Shown here in pieces: positions 34,720 through 43,843 of a stretch of 64,000 nt of DNA; the first letter of the stretch is position 1, and each line of letters opens with the position of its first letter. This DNA is from Pseudobdellovibrionaceae bacterium (GTDB lineage Bacteria; Bdellovibrionota; Bdellovibrionia; Bdellovibrionales; Bdellovibrionaceae). A program made the translations under genes and the position numbers. The notes under the pieces were generated by a model, which had not been told where the DNA came from, searched no databases, and saw only the letters and a program-made list of their open reading frames with translations. The stretch covers positions 248,001 to 312,000 of the forward strand of contig JAHBUW010000001.1 in the NCBI GenBank assembly GCA_019637875.1. The letters run 5' to 3'.

Positions 34720-35952
34720 CTAAAAGCTGCCACTCAGATCGAGGTGGGTGCGTACGTACTGCAGGTTGCGCTCGCTGACGAATTGGCGGTTCGCGAACTG
34801 GGTGTATTTGAAATTGAAGTTCTTGTTGATCTGGTATTGCAAAGACCACATGAACCCGCGCGTATCGGTCTGGCCGGCCGCGAAGTCCGAGAACGTGAAG
34901 ACTGCGGGCACGGCGTCGCTTTCGATTTCGCCGTAGGCGATTTGCGCGGTCCAAGGTTTGCGTGAGTAGCCGGTGCCGATCCACCACGCCCGGTTGGGAT
35001 CGCGCGTGTCCTCGTTCACGATCCGCTCGGCGAAGAGGTTCATGTCGCCGCCGAGAGCCGCGAAGCCTTGATCGACGTAGGCGCGCACCGGACGGAAGTT
35101 GTTCTTCACGGTGCCCGCCGGAAATTCCGAATTGCCCAAGGGCGCGCCGCCGGCCGCGAGCTCCGAGAACAGCCGTCCCTGGACGCCGACGAAATTGAAG
35201 ACGCTGATGCCGATTTTGAATTTCCAGTCGTCGTTGATGAACGTCAGGTCACCCGTGTGCAGGAAATTGTCGGTATGGTCTTCGGAATACACGAGGGCGT
35301 CGTAGTTTTCACGGATGAGCGCGCTGCCCACGCCCCACCCGATCTTCCAACTTTCGGTCAGGGGGGCTTCCCCGCGTACCGAGTAGCCCTCGAGCGCGAT
35401 GTCCTCGTCGAGCAGAACTTGCGTTCCTCCCGGCCGTTGGTGCCACTGCGGAATACGGCCCGCGTTCAAGCGGAACCATGACGTGGGTTTCCAATCCGCG
35501 TACGCGAGATCGAGTCCCATGTAGCGACGGGTGAAGCCGGGATCTTTGTCGTCACCCAGGGATTGATTGGTCGAACGGTAATTGGTGGTCGTCGCCAGAC
35601 GGAATTCCGTCCCGAGCGTTTCGCTGACGTCCGCGCGGAAGCCCAGCCGCGCACGGATGCGACCCGTCTTGCGCGAATCGGCGGCCTCGGTGTTTTCGAT
35701 CTGGCCGCGCAGGCGGAGGTCGCCTTTCCACTTCAGGCTTTTATCCACCTTCTTTTCCACAACCGGCGCGGCTTCCACCGAGCTGGTTTCCGGAGGGGCC
35801 GGGTCGAGCGAGCTGGCTTCGGCCGGCAGAGGTGCGGCGGGCTGAGCTGCGGCCGGCTGAGACGCGGCCCCTTGCGCGAATGCGGGCGCCGCGCGGAAGA
35901 GCGCGGTGGCGATCAGAATCGGTAAAAAGAAATTAAAGGTAATAATGCCCAA
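34720..35952 (-). CDS. Outer-membrane porin-like beta-barrel protein
   Basis: 410 residues. Signal peptide (~1-26), a Pro/Ala-rich periplasmic stretch (27-70), then a beta-barrel with alternating strands from WKGDLRLRGQ to the C-terminal aromatic DLSGSF. It resembles the Porin_5 'putative porin' group. It shares the motif LGDDKDPGFTRRYMGLDLA with the porin at 41395-42519 (LGDSKDPGFARRSFGLDLA), so the two are paralogues. TTG start; it overlaps the upstream haem-barrel gene by 20 bp, which ties it to the cytochrome operon. Confidence 0.8.
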   Translation of the reverse strand: MGIITFNFFLPILIATALFRAAPAFAQGAASQPAAAQPAAPLPAEASSLDPAPPETSSVEAAPVVEKKVDKSLKWKGDLRLRGQIENTEAADSRKTGRIRARLGFRADVSETLGTEFRLATTTNYRSTNQSLGDDKDPGFTRRYMGLDLAYADWKPTSWFRLNAGRIPQWHQRPGGTQVLLDEDIALEGYSVRGEAPLTESWKIGWGVGSALIRENYDALVYSEDHTDNFLHTGDLTFINDDWKFKIGISVFNFVGVQGRLFSELAAGGAPLGNSEFPAGTVKNNFRPVRAYVDQGFAALGGDMNLFAERIVNEDTRDPNRAWWIGTGYSRKPWTAQIAYGEIESDAVPAVFTFSDFAAGQTDTRGFMWSLQYQINKNFNFKYTQFANRQFVSERNLQYVRTHLDLSGSF

Positions 35953-37090
35953 TCAACCACACCGCATCTTGGAAGTCGCCGGAGGTCGCGGAGTTCCGCT
36001 CCTTCCGGTAAATCCCGTAAAGTTCCCAGTGGGCTTGGGGATACCACTGAGTTCCGAAACTGTAAGCCTCAAATTTGGGGTCCGTCTGATCCGTATTCAA
36101 GTTCGCGAATTCGTGCACGCCGAAAAGGTGAAAGCCCTGCCACAATTCGCGGCCCAATTTGAAAGTTTCGACGAAACCCCAGCGGCCGTCGGCGCGTTGG
36201 ACCCGGTTCAGATCCAAAAGACCGTACCACTCTTTCGTGAAGCCCATAAGCGCGTAAACGCCGTACATGCGGCGTTGGTAAGAACCGGCGCCGTCATCGC
36301 GCGTGGTTTGGTAGTAGTTCGCGCCGACTTTCGTGCTTTCGCCGAGGGCCGTGTTCACTTGCAGGATGCCGCCCATTTCCTTTTTGACGGTATTGCCGTT
36401 GGCTTGATTGTAGATGCCGGTCGCGACGATCGAGGTCATTTCGTGCGTCCACGCGAGTTCGGCGGCGCCGCGCTCTTGGCCGGGGCCGAAATCCAGATAG
36501 GTGCGGGTCGCGAAGGTGTGTTCGGCGAAAAGAATTCCGTAGGCGGGCGTGAAGCGCCCGACGCGCAAGGTGACGCGATCGTCCTCGGCTTCGGGATTCA
36601 GGATGAATTCGACGCCGTGACGGGGGCTTGTGACATAATCCTTGGCGACCGCGCCGTCGACGCGGGGTTCGACCCGACCGACCGAGAAGAAGACGCGAAG
36701 CCAATCCTTCACCTGAGCGGAGAGATCGAAGTCGACCTGCATGATCATGAAGCGACCACGCGAAGCCTGCGGGGACTCGATGAAGGATTGAAGGATGCGG
36801 ACGTCGCCTCCGGCCAGCAGCCATTCGGGAGTCTCGATCGCGCCGCCCAGAAAGTTTTCGCTGCCTTCCGGCGCCTGCAAGCCGAAGAAGTCCGTCTGCG
36901 AAAGCAGTTCTTTCGACAGTGAACGGCCGTAAGGGGTCAGCAGATTTCCGCCGACGAGGGTCGTATGGCAGACCGTGCAGTTCACGTAACCGTGCCGAAT
37001 CATCTCGGGAAACGCGTGCGCCCGCGCCGCGAGCAAGAAAATCGCTACGAGCGTCAGCACCGCCGCGAGGTAAAGCCAAAAACGCGTCAT
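35933..37090 (-). CDS. Outer-membrane beta-barrel protein with one N-terminal c-type haem site
   Basis: 385 residues. After a signal sequence (1-26) comes PEMIRHGYVNCTVCH, a CxxCH haem site at 38-42, then LLTPYGRSLSKEL and a barrel-like series of amphipathic strands to the C-terminal HYYL. The haem plus barrel arrangement suggests an outer-membrane electron-transfer protein with haem on the periplasmic side (inference). ATGA overlap with the two-haem lipoprotein; 20-bp overlap with the porin. Confidence 0.75.
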   Translation of the reverse strand: MTRFWLYLAAVLTLVAIFLLAARAHAFPEMIRHGYVNCTVCHTTLVGGNLLTPYGRSLSKELLSQTDFFGLQAPEGSENFLGGAIETPEWLLAGGDVRILQSFIESPQASRGRFMIMQVDFDLSAQVKDWLRVFFSVGRVEPRVDGAVAKDYVTSPRHGVEFILNPEAEDDRVTLRVGRFTPAYGILFAEHTFATRTYLDFGPGQERGAAELAWTHEMTSIVATGIYNQANGNTVKKEMGGILQVNTALGESTKVGANYYQTTRDDGAGSYQRRMYGVYALMGFTKEWYGLLDLNRVQRADGRWGFVETFKLGRELWQGFHLFGVHEFANLNTDQTDPKFEAYSFGTQWYPQAHWELYGIYRKERNSATSGDFQDAVWLIGHYYL

Positions 37091-37761
37091 TGAGGCATTC
37101 CCAGCTCGAACCACTTCAGAATCACACGTCTTTCCTTGGGCGATAGACCGGGCAGCGGCTGCACGGGCATATCCTGCTTCACAATAACGCGGTCGAAGAT
37201 CTTCGTCGCCGCGGCCTTCACTTGAGCGAAGTCCGTCAAATCTAGATCGGCCGCGGCACGCACCGCCACCGCGCCGTCGCCGTCGCCGTTGTACTTGGGT
37301 TGGTGGCACGACAGGCATTTACCGGCAAAGACGCCCTGACTGATTTTGCGAAAATCCGTCGGCCCCTGATCGAGGGCGCGGTCACCGCCATCGGGGATGC
37401 CCATGGCGATCTCCGGAGCGCCCGCATCCATCCACGCGGTCAACAGCGCCATCTCGTCCGCCGAGAGCGGATGCGCGGGTGGCATGTCCTTCGACTCCAA
37501 CGAGCGAAACGCCACGCGACCCAGCTGGGCACGCACGTCGTTGTAGGTCGCGAGGTTCGAGTTTCCTTTGTTGCCGGTCTCGGGCAAGTGGCAGCCGTAA
37601 CAGCGCGGGCCCAGGATATTCGCCTGGATCGTTTGGAAATCGAGCGGCCCCATGCTGCGCATATTCTGCGCGCCGAGATTGGGACGGTTTTCATTCTTCA
37701 TGCGGCTGTAGTTGCAACCCGCGAGCAGCAGCAACACCGGGATAAGGACGAAGGCTTTCAT
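37087..37761 (-). CDS. Two-haem c-type cytochrome lipoprotein
   Basis: 224 residues. Lipobox LLAGC with Cys16 gives lipid anchoring. Two haem sites: CYGCH at 54-58 and CLSCH near 150. Each is followed by a DMPP/DMPV segment, where Met may be the second iron ligand, so the protein is a tandem of two small cytochrome domains. ATGA overlaps at both ends couple it to the four-haem lipoprotein before it and the haem-barrel protein after it. Confidence 0.85.
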   Translation of the reverse strand: MKAFVLIPVLLLLAGCNYSRMKNENRPNLGAQNMRSMGPLDFQTIQANILGPRCYGCHLPETGNKGNSNLATYNDVRAQLGRVAFRSLESKDMPPAHPLSADEMALLTAWMDAGAPEIAMGIPDGGDRALDQGPTDFRKISQGVFAGKCLSCHQPKYNGDGDGAVAVRAAADLDLTDFAQVKAAATKIFDRVIVKQDMPVQPLPGLSPKERRVILKWFELGMPQ

Positions 37762-40397
37762 CACGTGCCGCCTTTCTTGTAGACCATTTCGCACTGGTCG
37801 TTGTTCGGACGAACGGTGCCCGACGCCATTTCTTTCAGGTATTCGTAGATCGCCCAACCCGCGTTCCAGGCGGCGCGGTCCAACCAGGCTTCGACCCGTT
37901 CCGGATGTCGCGGCTGACCCGAGGCCGGATCGAACTCCAGATCGGGATGGCCCGCGTAAAGGTTTTCCATGAAACAAACGGCGCGGAAAATCTCGTGATC
38001 CATGAAGTTCGGCGACGACGCCTTTTCAATGGAGATCTGCGACAGACACTTCTCGCGAATGCCGTTCAGCATCTGCCCGCCGTGTTTTCCCATGGCGCTG
38101 GCGACCTCGGGCGGGAACTTCACGCGCGTTCCTTCCATCGCCATCCAGATCAGATACTGACCGCCGTAGTTCACGCCGTCGATATCGAAGGTTTTCAGAT
38201 TCTCGTTTTTGTTGCCGAACATGCCTTCCATGAAGTTCGCGACCCGCACGCCGCCGCCGGACCAATTCAGGATCGAGCGCGCCAGCGGTGAATCTCCATC
38301 ACCCTTGGGGCCATGGCATTTCGCGCAGGTGTTCTTGAAGAAGTGCGCGCCGGGCGAAGCGTAGTAGATCTCGCCGTAGGGACGTTTGGGTTGCGTCCCC
38401 TTCATCATCCAGGGCAGACGTTTTTCCGGAGGCAAATCCGTTTTCGGGAACTCGCACGCCGGGCGTTTCAACCAGTAACCCACCGGGTATTCGGTGGTGA
38501 TCGCCTGACGCAAGTTTTCGGTCAGCTGAATGTCGCGGTATTTTTGCGGCATGCCTTCGACGGGATCTTTCCAATCGTTCCGACGGGGCATGAAGGTTTC
38601 GCCGCTCGGCCACGTCAGATCCATGTCGATCCAGTGCAGGGTCGAGGAGGGTTTACAGTTGTTCTCCCAAGTTTCGGCGGCTTGGAGGCTTTCGAAACTG
38701 CGGATCCAGCGGCCCATGACTTCCAGGACGCGGCAATCCGGCGCGCCGGGCGTGTGCATGGGCATCTGGGAATAGATCCCCTGCGCCGTCGGCGGATCGG
38801 CGACTTTGCGCCAGATGTGCGAGCTGTCGAGTTCACCGTTCTGGTGGACCATACGGCGTTGGGGTTGCTGCACGGATTTCAGCTGGGTGTTGAAGCTGAA
38901 GAGTTCGCCCGGCCCCAGTCCCAAACGCACGCCGTTGTCTTTGTTGAACGCGATGCCGTCGGGATTGTGGCAGTGGAAGCAGTTGCCGACGGTATAACCG
39001 TTCGCGCGCAGCTCATAGACGTTGCGCGCGGGCATGTTGCCGCTGTCTTCCAGGCGCGGCAGATCCGCCGGGGATTTGATTCCCGAGATGACGCCGTACT
39101 CGAGGAAACGTTGCACCTGCGACAGATCGCTCGACAGGGCGGGATCCAGGCGACCGGCTTCACCGAAGGCGCGTTTGTTGATCTGTAAGGGTTGGAAACC
39201 CAGGATGAAGTTCTTCGAGGGGCTGCCGACGTGACAGTCGATGCAGCGTTGACGGCCGGGGATCGCGTAGTCGCGGAACTTCCCTTTCACTTCGTCGATG
39301 GGGACCGCGTAGACCAAGTCCTTCCAAGGCGTGCCGTCACGGTAGGGCGCGGTGACGAGCGTCGCCACCTGTTCGGTTTCGTCCCACTGATAGGTACCGA
39401 ACAAAGACTTGTCCGAAGGCGTGCGCGCGACGATCAGGCGCGTCTCCATCCGGCGCATGCGGATCTTGCCGTCGGGCATGGTGATCGCGCGGTAGAAGCT
39501 TTTGTAGAAACGGGTGTTCTCGGGGATGTCGAAATTTTTGGTCTCTGGATTGTAGCGGATCGACTGTTTCACCAGACGACCGTTTTCGAGTTTCCACGGC
39601 ACGTGCAGCCAACGACCTTTTTCGGCGTTGTCGGCCCAGAGCGGATACTCGACGTTGTAGGCGAAGGTTCCCGTGCGCGCGAGCGCGAGGGGATCCAGGC
39701 TTGTCATATCAGTTTCACTCAGGTGTTTCGGAAGTTCCGTGGCGTTTTCGAAGAAACGGTCCATTTCGTAGTCGAAGCCGACGATGCCCGCGACTGGAAC
39801 GCAGTCGCCCAGTTCGGAACTCGACATGGGCTTCACGGGACGGGGTTTTCCGGTCAGCACTTTCGGACCGGTGCCCGCTTTGAAGTTGCCTTCGGGTTTG
39901 CCGGCTTGAATCCAGATCTCGAGTTCGCGACCCATCTTCAAGAAGGCTTCGGGATTTTTCGCGCGGCGATCCGCCGGCGGCATTTGTTTCGAAGGATCGG
40001 CGTGAAAGATCGACTCACGCATTTTTTCGGCGGTCTCGAAGAAGCCGTCCACCCAAGTGAGCTTTCCACCGAGAGAGATCTCTTGCGCGCGGTAGGTATC
40101 GATGTAAGTGAAGCCGCCGCTTTTCGCGGGACTCAAATGGCAACTGGCGCAGGCCGAATTCAAAGTGGCGCGCAGGTTCTGGTAGGTGTGCACGATGTCT
40201 TGCGAGCCGACGTAGGGAGTTTCCTGATACGAACGGTAGGACTCGACGGGTTTGCAGTTCGCGAGGCGGTACTTCTCTTCTTCCGACATCTGGCGGGGAG
40301 CCCCGCAGGCGGTGAGGAAGAGGACCGGAAATGCACAAAAGGCCGCGAGTGCGGCCTGATGAAAACGGGATGAGAATTTCAATTTTCGTAAGAACAT
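37761..40397 (-). CDS. Large four-haem c-type cytochrome lipoprotein
   Basis: 878 residues. Lipobox LTAC with Cys31. Four CxxCH sites: CASCH (83-87), CIDCH (~385), CFHCH (~473) and CAKCH (~690), separated by long non-haem regions. The central part (about 200-600) resembles large cytochrome proteins of unknown function seen in delta- and Bdellovibrio-type bacteria; I cannot name a reaction. The protein probably faces the periplasm or outer membrane. First gene of a four-gene operon whose members overlap by 4, 4 and 20 bases. Confidence 0.8.
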   Translation of the reverse strand: MFLRKLKFSSRFHQAALAAFCAFPVLFLTACGAPRQMSEEEKYRLANCKPVESYRSYQETPYVGSQDIVHTYQNLRATLNSACASCHLSPAKSGGFTYIDTYRAQEISLGGKLTWVDGFFETAEKMRESIFHADPSKQMPPADRRAKNPEAFLKMGRELEIWIQAGKPEGNFKAGTGPKVLTGKPRPVKPMSSSELGDCVPVAGIVGFDYEMDRFFENATELPKHLSETDMTSLDPLALARTGTFAYNVEYPLWADNAEKGRWLHVPWKLENGRLVKQSIRYNPETKNFDIPENTRFYKSFYRAITMPDGKIRMRRMETRLIVARTPSDKSLFGTYQWDETEQVATLVTAPYRDGTPWKDLVYAVPIDEVKGKFRDYAIPGRQRCIDCHVGSPSKNFILGFQPLQINKRAFGEAGRLDPALSSDLSQVQRFLEYGVISGIKSPADLPRLEDSGNMPARNVYELRANGYTVGNCFHCHNPDGIAFNKDNGVRLGLGPGELFSFNTQLKSVQQPQRRMVHQNGELDSSHIWRKVADPPTAQGIYSQMPMHTPGAPDCRVLEVMGRWIRSFESLQAAETWENNCKPSSTLHWIDMDLTWPSGETFMPRRNDWKDPVEGMPQKYRDIQLTENLRQAITTEYPVGYWLKRPACEFPKTDLPPEKRLPWMMKGTQPKRPYGEIYYASPGAHFFKNTCAKCHGPKGDGDSPLARSILNWSGGGVRVANFMEGMFGNKNENLKTFDIDGVNYGGQYLIWMAMEGTRVKFPPEVASAMGKHGGQMLNGIREKCLSQISIEKASSPNFMDHEIFRAVCFMENLYAGHPDLEFDPASGQPRHPERVEAWLDRAAWNAGWAIYEYLKEMASGTVRPNNDQCEMVYKKGGT

Positions 40398-40449: not shown

Positions 40450-41271
40450 CTAGTCGATGGTGATGAATTCGTGCGATTGGACGATCGGGTCCATGAACGA
40501 GCGGTCAGTGACGTAGCTCATCAGGTCCGCCTCGGGTTGGCTCAGCTCGCGGCCGATGACTTCGTAAACGTAGAGGTTACGTGCCATGGGGTACGAGAAG
40601 TTGCGGATCGAAGTGGTGTTGGGCAGCACGGGAGCCGCACCAGCCGACTTTGCGATCGCGAGGGTACGGTTGTCCGCCAGTTTACCCGAGAGACCCGCGT
40701 AACCGATGGTCAGACCGTCGCGCGCTGTCGCTTCGGCGATATCCGCGGTTTCGTTCAGAACGGTCACGCAAGCACCGAAGTTCTTCAGGCCGGTGAAGTG
40801 TTTGAACGCGTCGGTGGTGCCCGAAGCGTCGTTACGGCGAACGACGCGGATTTGGCCGCGCAGATTCGAACCGGGGATTTGTTCCCACTGGGTGATTTCG
40901 CAAGTGAAGATGCGAGTGACGGTGGGCAGATCCAGGGCTTGCACGGGGCTCGACGCTTTCACGAAGAGCGCGATGCCGTCCAGACCGATGACGTGGGGAA
41001 CGACGTCCAAACCGCGTGCTTTCATTTCATTGAGGACTTCGGGTTTGATTTCGCGCGACATGGGACCGATGTTTTGATCGCCGTTCGCCAGACCTTTTTC
41101 CGCCAGACCCGAGCCGCCGCCGGTGTACTGGATTTGCGAGTCCATGCCCGCCGCGATGATCGCGTCGGTCATCATACCGCCGAGGGTATCCGAGCCAGCG
41201 AACAGAACTTTGTTTTGTGCGGAAGCGGTGGCTGCCGCGAAGACCAGAGCCGAGAACACAAGCTTTTTCAT
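40450..41271 (-). CDS. PstS-like phosphate/anion-binding periplasmic protein
   Basis: 273 residues. Signal peptide (1-18, ASAQ), then a type II binding-protein fold with FAGSDTLGG, the oxyanion loop TGGGSGLAEKGL and NDASGTTDAFKHF, all typical of PstS-type phosphate binders. No pstC/A/B gene is near, so it is an orphan. AGGAG (in TTGAGGAGTAG) precedes the ATG. It lies 52 bp upstream of the cytochrome operon and 123 bp downstream of a porin gene on the same strand, which suggests an outer-membrane phosphate-uptake or regulatory link (inference). Confidence 0.85.
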   Translation of the reverse strand: MKKLVFSALVFAAATASAQNKVLFAGSDTLGGMMTDAIIAAGMDSQIQYTGGGSGLAEKGLANGDQNIGPMSREIKPEVLNEMKARGLDVVPHVIGLDGIALFVKASSPVQALDLPTVTRIFTCEITQWEQIPGSNLRGQIRVVRRNDASGTTDAFKHFTGLKNFGACVTVLNETADIAEATARDGLTIGYAGLSGKLADNRTLAIAKSAGAAPVLPNTTSIRNFSYPMARNLYVYEVIGRELSQPEADLMSYVTDRSFMDPIVQSHEFITID

Positions 41272-41347: not shown

Positions 41348-41394
41348 TGGAATTGTCGGGAAAATGTCAGGAGACTGCGTGGGTGGAGGGCAGC

Positions 41395-42519
41395 TTAGAA
41401 GTTCATCATGAAGTCGACTTGGGTGAGGCTGTAATCGCGCTCGGTCGAACTGATACCGCGTTTGGCATTGTATTGATTGATGGCGAAGGCGGAGTTGTCG
41501 CTGAACTGATAGCCCACGGTGATACGACGGCCGTCCGCATCCGTGCCGCCGCCATTGGCGTCGCTGTCGGAGTAGGCGCCGATGACCGAGTCGGCTTCTT
41601 TACGGATCAAACCGAAGCCCAGCGAGGTGCGCTCCCACTTGAAGCCGATGCCGAACTCGTGACCGCTACCGTCGGTCGAGACCTCGCGGTTTTTGACGAA
41701 ATCCGCGAAGAGATTCACGTCGACGAGGGCGAGTTTGGATTTCACCTCGGCGCCCACGATGTCGAGCACGTATTTGTTCGACATGCGGAAAGGGTCGCCG
41801 GGCAACAAACGGTAGATCGAGTTCCCGCGGTAGCGGTCGAAGGGGATCGAGTACATATCGTAGCTCGCGCCTTTATCCAGACTGGTGATGAGCTGATCCT
41901 GCACGTTCACGTAGTTTTGATTCGCATAGTGGATCGTCGCTTGGACGCCGCCGAAGTCATGGCTGTAGCCCAGCTGGAAACCCGGGATGCCGATGTCCAC
42001 GACGTCCGAACGAGTGGCCGAGTCGTAGTTTTCCGAGATCAGGAAAGCCCCGGCGTTCACGAAAAAGCCGCCGGTTTTGTACTGGACCGAGAGGCCCTCG
42101 AAGTTCAGATCCGAATCGAAGACGAGCTGATTTTTACCCGCCGAGAAATAGGGATTGGGGACGCGTCCGCCCGAGACCGTGAGTCCTTTGACCGCGGTCC
42201 ACTGCATGGCCGCCAGATCCAGGCCGAAACTGCGGCGGGCGAAGCCGGGGTCTTTCGAGTCCCCCAAAGTCTGATTCGTGCTGATGGCGGAGGAAGCCGT
42301 CGCCAGACGGATCACCGCGCGCAGCTCGGGATTCACTTCGGCCTTTACTTGCAGGCGCGCGCGCAACTGTTGGTAAGGGCGGGGTTGATCTTCGGCTTCT
42401 TTGGCTTGGACCAAGCGGTAACGGAGGTCGCCGGACCACTCGGGTTTCAGCTCCAAGCCTTGCGCGAAGATTCGCGGCATCCATCCCATAAATACGAAGA
42501 GTGCGATGATGTACTTCAT
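41395..42519 (-). CDS. Outer-membrane porin-like beta-barrel protein (paralogue)
   Basis: 374 residues. Signal peptide (1-19), then WSGDLRYRLVQ and a run of amphipathic strands ending in VDFMMNF, with a terminal Phe as in outer-membrane barrels. It shares TNQTLGDSKDPGFARR with the porin at 34720-35952. With the PstS-like gene downstream, anion or phosphate uptake is a plausible role, resembling the OprO/OprP idea, but I see no direct proof. Start ATG 42519; upstream frame extension is not barrel-like. Confidence 0.8.
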   Translation of the reverse strand: MKYIIALFVFMGWMPRIFAQGLELKPEWSGDLRYRLVQAKEAEDQPRPYQQLRARLQVKAEVNPELRAVIRLATASSAISTNQTLGDSKDPGFARRSFGLDLAAMQWTAVKGLTVSGGRVPNPYFSAGKNQLVFDSDLNFEGLSVQYKTGGFFVNAGAFLISENYDSATRSDVVDIGIPGFQLGYSHDFGGVQATIHYANQNYVNVQDQLITSLDKGASYDMYSIPFDRYRGNSIYRLLPGDPFRMSNKYVLDIVGAEVKSKLALVDVNLFADFVKNREVSTDGSGHEFGIGFKWERTSLGFGLIRKEADSVIGAYSDSDANGGGTDADGRRITVGYQFSDNSAFAINQYNAKRGISSTERDYSLTQVDFMMNF

Positions 42520-42602
42520 CGCGGACCATTTACCGGGGGGGGCCGAGGGCGCGTCAAAAAGCGCGCGGCGTCCAAACCCATTCCTGACAATCGCCATGAC
42601 AT

Positions 42603-43754
42603 TTAAACAAAACGAACGCATGTGAATCCGCCGTATTTGGTGCGCATATTGGTCAACTGCCCTTGATACAGGCGGGCGATGGCCCCCTGAACCCGGCCTT
42701 TGTAGGCATAGAAGCGCAGATCGTATTTGAAATCCTGGAAGCCGTCGGGTGTTTCGAAGCGCGCCTCGGGGGCCGGGCAGTACTCTTGCGCCAAGATGTC
42801 TTCGCCCACAAGACCGTCGAAGACTTTGCGTGAAACGGACGAACCCCGATAGGTCTGCTTTCCGCCATAGGCCCGCAGCGGTTTGAAGAAGAGCTGCTTG
42901 CGCCGTGCCCACAGGTCGTCGGCATTTTCCGCCGTCAAGACTTCGGCTTTCAAAAGCGCGCGTTCGATGGCGTCGGCTTGCGCCGACGAGAGGCGGTCGA
43001 GGTAGGTGCCCGCATCGGCGGTCATTTCACGCAAACGCTCTTTGTCCGCGAGCGCGAGATATTCGAAAGGATGGGGCGAGAAGCAGGTCGTCCGCGCAAG
43101 ATACAGTTCCCGCAACGCCTTCGACTTTTCCTCTTCGAAATAGAAATCGGTGTAACGGTTGTAAACGAAGCGATCTTTCGCGGTGACTTCATGCAAATCG
43201 GCCAGACGGGCTTCGTAGCCCCATTTGCGGAACTGCGAAAGGAAGTAGTCGAACTCGATGCGAAGTTTCTGTTCCGTCGGTTTCTCGTCGAGCACCAGCC
43301 AGGGACCTTGCGCGTTCGTGGGCGCGGCCAGTTGCAATTCTTCTTCGATCGCGCGACGGAGTTCGTTGGGATTGTAACCCGCGACCGGCCAGGGCAGTCC
43401 CTGCGATTCGTAAAGCGGCCAGGCCAGGCCTTGGAAGGCCGCGTTCGTATTGATTTCGATGAGCTTCAGCGTGTCGTCGGCCGCACGGTGAAAGTCGTAG
43501 CTCATGCAGATGGCGAAGTTGCCGGGATTTTGCAGGCCCCGCTTCGCGGCCTCGGCTTCGAAATGCGCGACCGAGGCGGGATGCTCGCGCCACGCGAAGA
43601 AGGCGGCCACGGCCTCTTCGGCCTGGGTTAAAATCGCGCGGGGCAGCTCCAGAGTAAATTCAGAGATGAGCTCGGGCGTGACCAGGCTTTCGATCTCGGT
43701 CCGGCTTTTAAAGGGGATCTCTTGCGCCAAAAGATCCAGAAACTTCGCGCGCAT
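42603..43754 (-). CDS. ATP-grasp-like protein of unknown substrate
   Basis: 383 residues. The C-terminal half has the ATP-grasp pattern: LFFKPLRAYGGKQTYRG, then ILAQEYCPAPE, DLRFYAYKG and TNMRTKYGGF, recalling glutathione-synthase-like ligases. The N-terminal half contains SYDFHRAADDTLKLIEINTN, where the Glu-Ile-Asn-Thr-Asn resembles a metal/substrate site. Such enzymes join a carboxylate to an amine using ATP. I choose ATG 43754 with GAGGTA upstream over ATG 43799, which lacks a ribosome site. Substrate unknown. Confidence 0.7.
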   Translation of the reverse strand: MRAKFLDLLAQEIPFKSRTEIESLVTPELISEFTLELPRAILTQAEEAVAAFFAWREHPASVAHFEAEAAKRGLQNPGNFAICMSYDFHRAADDTLKLIEINTNAAFQGLAWPLYESQGLPWPVAGYNPNELRRAIEEELQLAAPTNAQGPWLVLDEKPTEQKLRIEFDYFLSQFRKWGYEARLADLHEVTAKDRFVYNRYTDFYFEEEKSKALRELYLARTTCFSPHPFEYLALADKERLREMTADAGTYLDRLSSAQADAIERALLKAEVLTAENADDLWARRKQLFFKPLRAYGGKQTYRGSSVSRKVFDGLVGEDILAQEYCPAPEARFETPDGFQDFKYDLRFYAYKGRVQGAIARLYQGQLTNMRTKYGGFTCVRFV

Positions 43755-43843
43755 CCGCGGGGTACCTCGTTGAATTTGAGGCGCGCCTAAGCGCGACATG
43801 AAGAAGGTTGCGTGAGACCCGGGAATTTGCAATGGATGGGGGC

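Follow-up and report, generated by a model that had tools for sequence, protein, structure and literature searches.

The locus considered here raises the question of what purpose is served by haem proteins encoded side by side with outer-membrane barrels. It lies on the minus strand of a 64,000-nt stretch of DNA, hereafter the window (contig JAHBUW010000001.1, positions 248,001 to 312,000, of the Pseudobdellovibrionaceae bacterium assembly GCA_019637875.1). A sequence-only reading of this DNA had described four genes, for a four-haem lipoprotein (here TetraH), a two-haem lipoprotein (DiH), a barrel with one haem site (HemBar) and a porin (PorinB), as resembling an outer-membrane electron conduit. 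All four were recovered at the positions given there, but the unit is larger: a PstS-like phosphate-binding protein and a second porin, PorinA, are encoded just upstream and belong to it too, being syntenic with the cassette in relatives. The full order is PorinA, PstS-like, TetraH, DiH, HemBar, PorinB. The PstS-like gene, PorinA and the PHO-box-like promoters, none of which figured in the sequence-only reading, point to phosphate starvation rather than to generic extracellular electron transfer. The answer we favour, with a probability that we place just short of even, is that all six genes are one unit of the phosphate-starvation (Pho) regulon and build an outer-membrane redox conduit.

The cassette containing TetraH was found in ten genomes (G000, that of the window, G018, G012, G016, G153, G031, G147, G218, G203 and G281), all of them Bdellovibrionota and drawn from at least three families (f1, f18, f25). 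The sequence-only reading had staked itself on a conserved gene order, and a core order PstS-TetraH-(YceI)-DiH-HemBar-porin is common to the ten. A YceI gene is inserted in G012, G153, G147, G218 and G203 and absent from the window, G018, G016, G031 and G281; the G147 contig stops within TetraH, with the PstS-like region beyond the contig end. PorinA is syntenic in L023 (G018) and in L043. The latter (L043:6347-10190) is a reduced cassette consisting of PorinA, a 121-aa one-haem protein that matches only the TetraH N-terminus, HemBar and PorinB, with PHO-box-like sites preceding PorinA and the one-haem gene. Full-length TetraH is patchily distributed: within the window's family 8 of 66 genomes have it, and across the phylum 7 of the 192 sampled. 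A narrow peptide-pattern search of genome contigs returned only Bdellovibrionota-type records and metagenome-assembled genomes titled 'Deltaproteobacteria' or 'bacterium', the named relatives being Bdellovibrio-type metagenome-assembled genomes.

The cassettes have a promoter element in common. Upstream of the PstS-like gene in eight of them, a CYTRACA-like heptamer is repeated at 11-bp spacing. A PHO box has been defined as a pair of 11-nt direct repeats, each made up of seven conserved bases and four loose ones (PMC4415409); the predicted cassette element fits this layout and is common to the pst genes. In the window, the direct repeat CCTGACA-TTTT-CCCGACA (41354..41371, minus strand) that precedes the PstS-like gene (40450..41271, minus strand) is the best match to a pst matrix in the 64 kb, and the second best, CCAAACC-CATT-CCTGACA (42572..42589, plus strand), precedes PorinA (41395..42519, minus strand) in opposite orientation. 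Sites at a comparable place and strand are present in eight other cassettes, and the element precedes the cassette in all nine genomes with readable upstream DNA, in one of them weakly. Minus-strand PHO-box-like sites also precede PorinA in L023 and L043, the PorinA sites lying in the opposite orientation. The classical E. coli box (TGTCA-N6-TGTCA) was tried and set aside, as it was significant in part of the promoters only and the 7+4 repeat explained more.

The relation to pst was examined in both directions. When trained on the cassette repeats, a matrix matched pst promoters elsewhere in the same genomes in seven of eight cases (p 0.0007-0.0067 each); in the eighth, the window's own genome, CCTGACA-TGAC-ACTGACA was found before pst once the start codon had been reassigned. 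With a matrix made from pst sites only, all eight cassette PstS promoters ranked within about the best 1-2% when compared with random 250-bp windows; their sites share the strand and precede the start by 68-149 nt. By the pst-only matrix, fifteen HemBar modules of other kinds were unremarkable (Fisher P 0.23, versus 5e-10 for the cassettes). Perfect-consensus sites are rare, amounting to seven in six genomes, and three of the seven lie directly before pst genes. One PhoB-type regulator gene adjoins pst in G218. Elsewhere in G012, an overlapping run of 11-bp repeats with a high pst-matrix score (L040:13049-13088) is probably another Pho regulon promoter. The PHO-box-like element before both the haem-barrel cassette and the pst genes of the same genomes is new here; in the open-licence literature on phosphate starvation with cytochromes, electron transfer or Cyc2, no outer-membrane cytochrome was found described as a member of the Pho regulon.

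The PstS-like protein matches PBP_like_2 (PF12849; E 5e-24), exceeding the cut-off of that family, and scores 118 bits against TIGR02136, which is below the cut-off. It aligns with the solved PstS structures 4PQJ/4OMB (E 1.7e-20) such that the GSDT, GGGS and RxDxSGT positions match, and these are invariant in eight cassettes. It is a member of the PstS family, with a periplasmic-binding-protein fold and a conserved predicted phosphate-binding loop. Its gene comes without an ABC transporter of its own, although in all cassette genomes tested a pstC is located elsewhere. Both porins match Porin_5 (PF16930; gathering cut-off 22), PorinA with 97.3 bits (E 1.1e-27) and PorinB with 91.8 bits (E 5e-26). 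In L092 and L093 the porin slot is occupied by Porin_O_P (PF07396), the phosphate-selective porin family; the slot protein of another locus (L094:3743-4753) gives a weak match to ExtI, a selenite/tellurite porin of Geobacter (NF040900; 54.7 bits versus a cut-off of 150).

TetraH (37761..40397, minus strand; 878 aa), which follows the PstS-like gene after a gap of 52 nt, carries the haem sites CASCH (40137..40151, minus strand), CIDCH, CFHCH and CAKCH, the last three beginning at 39245, 38981 and 38327. DiH (37087..37761, minus strand) carries CYGCH and CLSCH and matches Cytochrome_CBB3 (E 1.8e-7) and Cytochrom_C (E 1.2e-6), and HemBar (35933..37090, minus strand) has the single site CTVCH (36965..36979, minus strand; residues 38-42). 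The count of seven CxxCH sites given by the sequence-only reading was borne out, and a six-frame scan placed seven of the eight CxxCH motifs of the window within the four genes, a clustering that is not due to chance. The overlaps of 4, 4 and 20 bases reported for these genes stood for DiH/HemBar (4 nt, ATGA) and for HemBar/PorinB (20 nt; PorinB, 34720..35952, minus strand, starts with TTG); that of TetraH and DiH is 4 nt only from an alternative GTG start of DiH at 37764, and 1 nt from its ATG. Lipoboxes that lack an aspartate after the cysteine are expected to direct anchoring in the outer membrane. Those of TetraH (LTAC) and DiH (LAGC) have no aspartate at that position, and outer-membrane anchoring of both proteins is therefore expected from their sequences.

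Residues 223-486 of TetraH match positions 2-234 of the SO2930 family profile TIGR03806 (E 1e-29), although the score of 103.7 bits is below the curated cut-off of 313.3 and only part of the profile is covered. The SO2930 family is a dihaem cytochrome, whereas TetraH has four haems and two further cytochrome c domains, one towards each end. Identity among the cassettes is 50-66%, with long conserved stretches beyond the haem sites, and all four CxxCH motifs are invariant in eight homologues. TetraH adjoins the PstS-like gene wherever the contig extends far enough.

HemBar (385 aa) has no Pfam or NCBIfam match. It begins with a signal peptide, judged by eye, just after which the haem site follows; C38, C41 and H42 are invariant in 20 sequences. 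An AlphaFold2 model made with these 20 sequences (predicted local distance difference test, pLDDT, 80.7) gives a barrel of 16 strands, in keeping with the sequence-only reading, which had also depended on outer-membrane barrels. Confidence is low immediately ahead of the haem site, with residues 22-26 and 31-34 under 50. The nearest structures are OprP and OprO (2O4V, 4RJW; Z 24.8, 2.6 A over 284-285 residues), while many other 16-strand porins reach Z 22-24. Two residues of the barrel part, M117 and H191, are likewise invariant in the 20 sequences; either is a possible second haem ligand.

Relatives of HemBar are present in 45 of 60 related genomes. Most of those examined belong to a simpler module of DiH, a YceI-family gene and HemBar. 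A divergent TPR/winged-helix regulator is frequently its neighbour, as seen in several genomes, and nearly all related loci have DiH together with HemBar. A 98/99 branch in a tree of 27 HemBars separates ten cassette members (from nine cassette genomes and the reduced cassette L043) from the others. The window's own genome has a second module of the simpler kind (G000:C4:9076-10176; L002, L027), with DiH, YceI, HemBar and the divergent regulator and with no PHO-box-like site. It also has a third, distant HemBar-like protein of 405 aa with one CxxCH and the segment GGG..YGR (G000:C4:215380-215967; L003, L028), encoded near other one- and two-haem proteins.

The architecture of HemBar recalls Cyc2, a fused cytochrome-porin whose closest porins are OprO and OprP, which oxidises Fe(II) and passes the electrons inward, and whose haem domain has been proposed to act as a plug at the periplasmic mouth (PMC8406198). 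Like Cyc2, HemBar has a signal peptide, a single N-terminal CxxCH, a length above the Cyc2 criterion of at least 365 aa and a predicted 16-strand barrel nearest to OprO/OprP. The spacing A-x-P-x(3)-R-x(5)-CxxCH is also that of the Cyc2-motif proteins of the phylum. The segment up to the haem site, AFPEMIRHGYVNCTVCH, nevertheless departs from the Cyc2 motif AXPXFAR[Q/K][T/Y]...CXXCH: HemBar reads AFPEMIRHG, in which only A, P and R agree with AXPXFAR[Q/K][T/Y], though one cassette HemBar (L082) reads AFPEFARHG. The PXL that follows CxxCH in Cyc2 is missing (TTLVGGNLLTPYGR); GGNLLTPYGR stands in its place, and a conserved GG...YGR segment after the haem sets HemBar apart, as do its companions, namely the haem lipoproteins, the PstS-like protein, the porins and the PHO-box-like element. 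In a HemBar-derived score over the twelve upstream residues, with CxxCH masked, Cyc2-motif proteins ranked top of the non-HemBar haem segments, in a set of loci partly chosen for Cyc2-likeness. By blastp the two groups matched at E ~1e-5 at best, over the N-terminus only, in an 8-sequence set of same-phylum proteins that includes no characterised Cyc2, and an hhalign result of 92% covered only 81 barrel columns, which we do not regard as proving kinship. Membership of Cyc2 was rejected on the motif and the architecture kept; HemBar is built like Cyc2 but is not called a Cyc2.

Strict or near-strict Cyc2-motif proteins do occur in Bdellovibrionota (L075, L077 (G007), L076 (G186), L102 and L118). 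In G007 a small single-haem protein comes after each of two such proteins (the one scanned was Cytochrom_C), an arrangement that recalls cyc2-cyc1; this genome gave no HemBar match. A strict Cyc2 DNA pattern was found neither in the window's own genome nor in viral contigs.

Among described systems, MtrCAB and OmbB-OmaB-OmcB (PMC4245776) resemble the cassette in that c-type cytochromes are encoded with outer-membrane barrels. Differences are that the cassette has neither proteins of 8-12 haems nor homologous ones, and that the haem of HemBar is within the barrel protein, which has 16 strands as against about 26. On haem number (four, two and one) and barrel size a conduit of either type was rejected, in agreement with the sequence-only reading. 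What that reading had taken as the mark of a porin-cytochrome conduit, haem lipoproteins encoded with barrels, is indeed there; the closest architecture is nonetheless the monohaem Cyc2 and not the multihaem conduits, and the passage of electrons across the membrane is putative. The Geobacter extHIJKLMNOPQS cluster (PMC5877670) also has an OprP-type porin, ExtI, beside multihaem cytochromes, but ExtI has no haem and does not respond to phosphate, and no PstS is listed there. The Pho regulon (pst operon, OprO/OprP, PhoE) provides the PHO-box-like 11-bp repeats, the phosphate-binding protein and the phosphate-type porin seen in the porin slot; the haem proteins set the cassette apart from it, no described member of the regulon that is an outer-membrane cytochrome having been found.

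The scheme that we envisage starts with phosphate limitation, under which a PhoB-type regulator would very probably bind the 11-bp repeats before the PstS-like gene and PorinA, as the shared promoter elements suggest. TetraH and DiH, as periplasmic lipoproteins of the outer membrane, would probably deliver electrons to the haem at the periplasmic mouth of HemBar, or draw them from it, HemBar being the predicted 16-strand, OprP-like barrel built like Cyc2. Only tentatively do we propose that the electrons move outward, reducing Fe(III) or another oxidant in phosphate-binding phases or complexes; outward flow to phosphate-binding Fe(III) is favoured because redox barrel, porins, phosphate trap and Pho control would then all serve a single end. 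PorinA and PorinB would admit the freed phosphate, and the PstS-like protein, given its homology to PstS, would trap it and might hand it to the separate PstSCAB transporter of the cell. The complete scheme, a dedicated reductive scavenging of phosphate in which a haem barrel installed on starvation passes electrons to the Fe(III) that holds phosphate while the porins and the PstS-like protein import it, is speculative and on balance doubtful.

Several observations weigh against a Pho-controlled redox conduit. The motif analysis is partly circular: the repeats were first seen in the cassettes, and a matrix trained on the cassettes then picked the pst sites as its best hits, which deprives the reverse test of independence. 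Compared with the upstream regions of other open reading frames (n = 271, a set that contains tested sites), individual p values are no better than 0.02-0.06. The G012 promoter is weak (score 9.8, p 0.02). That of G281, the ninth cassette and one left out of every matrix, is modest at 10.9; its best site lies on the right strand, 61-78 nt ahead of the PstS-like gene. No PhoB-like protein scored above the NCBIfam cut-off, though PhoB-type candidates are many. TetraH was modelled at low confidence (pLDDT 41.6), which makes a catalytic role possible. HemBar has a single haem, and Cyc2 runs inward (PMC8406198); sequence does not fix the direction in HemBar, and a short monohaem plug may fall short of solid minerals. 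Pho control, redox role and uptake alike are predictions.

The promoter repeats might accordingly reflect chance or another regulator of the OmpR/PhoB family, the cassette being a general electron-transfer module whose PstS-like protein binds some other oxyanion. OmpR-family regulators often bind 10-11-bp direct repeats, a habit that together with the circularity lends weight to this idea, as does the unresponsiveness of ExtI to phosphate in a cytochrome cluster (PMC5877670). Shuffled windows yielded a site of at least 14.5 in three of ten, so score alone is unremarkable and the position of the window sites is what counts. The same repeat nonetheless stands before pst operons, supplies the top two sites of the 64 kb, is lacking from the 15 control modules and recurs in the untrained cassette of G281; better guards against circularity than the reverse test are the forward test, the control modules, the rank of the sites within the window, and G281. 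We consider this explanation unlikely. A Pho-type promoter would suit any phosphorus source, and the cassette could instead oxidise phosphite, a phosphonate or another organic phosphorus compound in the periplasm, with TetraH as the dehydrogenase, electrons leaving through DiH and HemBar or entering the respiratory chain, and the PstS-like protein binding product or substrate. The size of TetraH, its 50-66% identity with long conserved stretches beyond the haem sites, and its constant place beside the PstS-like gene are what such an enzyme would lead one to expect. Against that, Pfam and NCBIfam revealed no known catalytic domain in TetraH, no phosphite or phosphonate genes were seen beside the cassettes, whose flanks are only partly annotated, and a periplasmic enzyme needs neither a barrel-borne haem nor two extra porins; we regard this as improbable.

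Two further explanations turn on HemBar itself. It could be a Cyc2-like Fe(II) oxidase that takes electrons from dissolved Fe(II) and passes them inward, either to gain energy or to curb iron toxicity, a hazard that may increase under phosphate scarcity. The Cyc2 architecture, the high rank of Cyc2-motif proteins on the stretch before CxxCH and the AFPEFARHG of L082 speak for it, but the divergent motif (AFPEMIRHG, with GGNLL where PXL is expected) and the marginal blastp matches do not, and the PstS-like protein, the phosphate-type porins and the PHO-box-like sites would be left unexplained, so that we give it a small probability. Alternatively, the haem domain could be a redox-sensitive plug gating an OprP-like phosphate channel, with DiH and TetraH setting its redox state, which would make HemBar a gated phosphate porin instead of an electron conduit. 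OprP and OprO as top structural matches, the Pho-type promoter and the periplasmic plug proposed for Cyc2 (PMC8406198) agree with this. An OprP-like shape is common among 16-strand barrels, though, and other HemBar modules have DiH and YceI with neither PHO-box-like site nor PstS, which argues that the basic job of HemBar is not phosphate-specific; we find a gated porin very unlikely.

Outer-membrane cytochromes are almost always read as respiratory devices. If the cassette is truly phosphate-controlled, outer-membrane electron transfer can serve nutrient acquisition instead of respiration. Iron-bound phosphate is a major store of phosphorus in sediments and soils, and under the same condition the cassette offers a genetic marker of microbes that might be able to mobilise it. 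With HemBar, a haem-barrel family takes its place next to Cyc2 in a phylum noted for predators, and the case serves as a warning that a Cyc2-like architecture alone is insufficient to infer iron oxidation.

As to haem attachment, no CcmE match was found in the window's own genome, and a weak ResB-like match (E 2.6e-8) suggests system II. The conserved neighbour of PorinA in the window (42603-43772, minus strand) has no Pfam or NCBIfam match; a gene 41% identical to it lies beside the cassette in G018 (L023).

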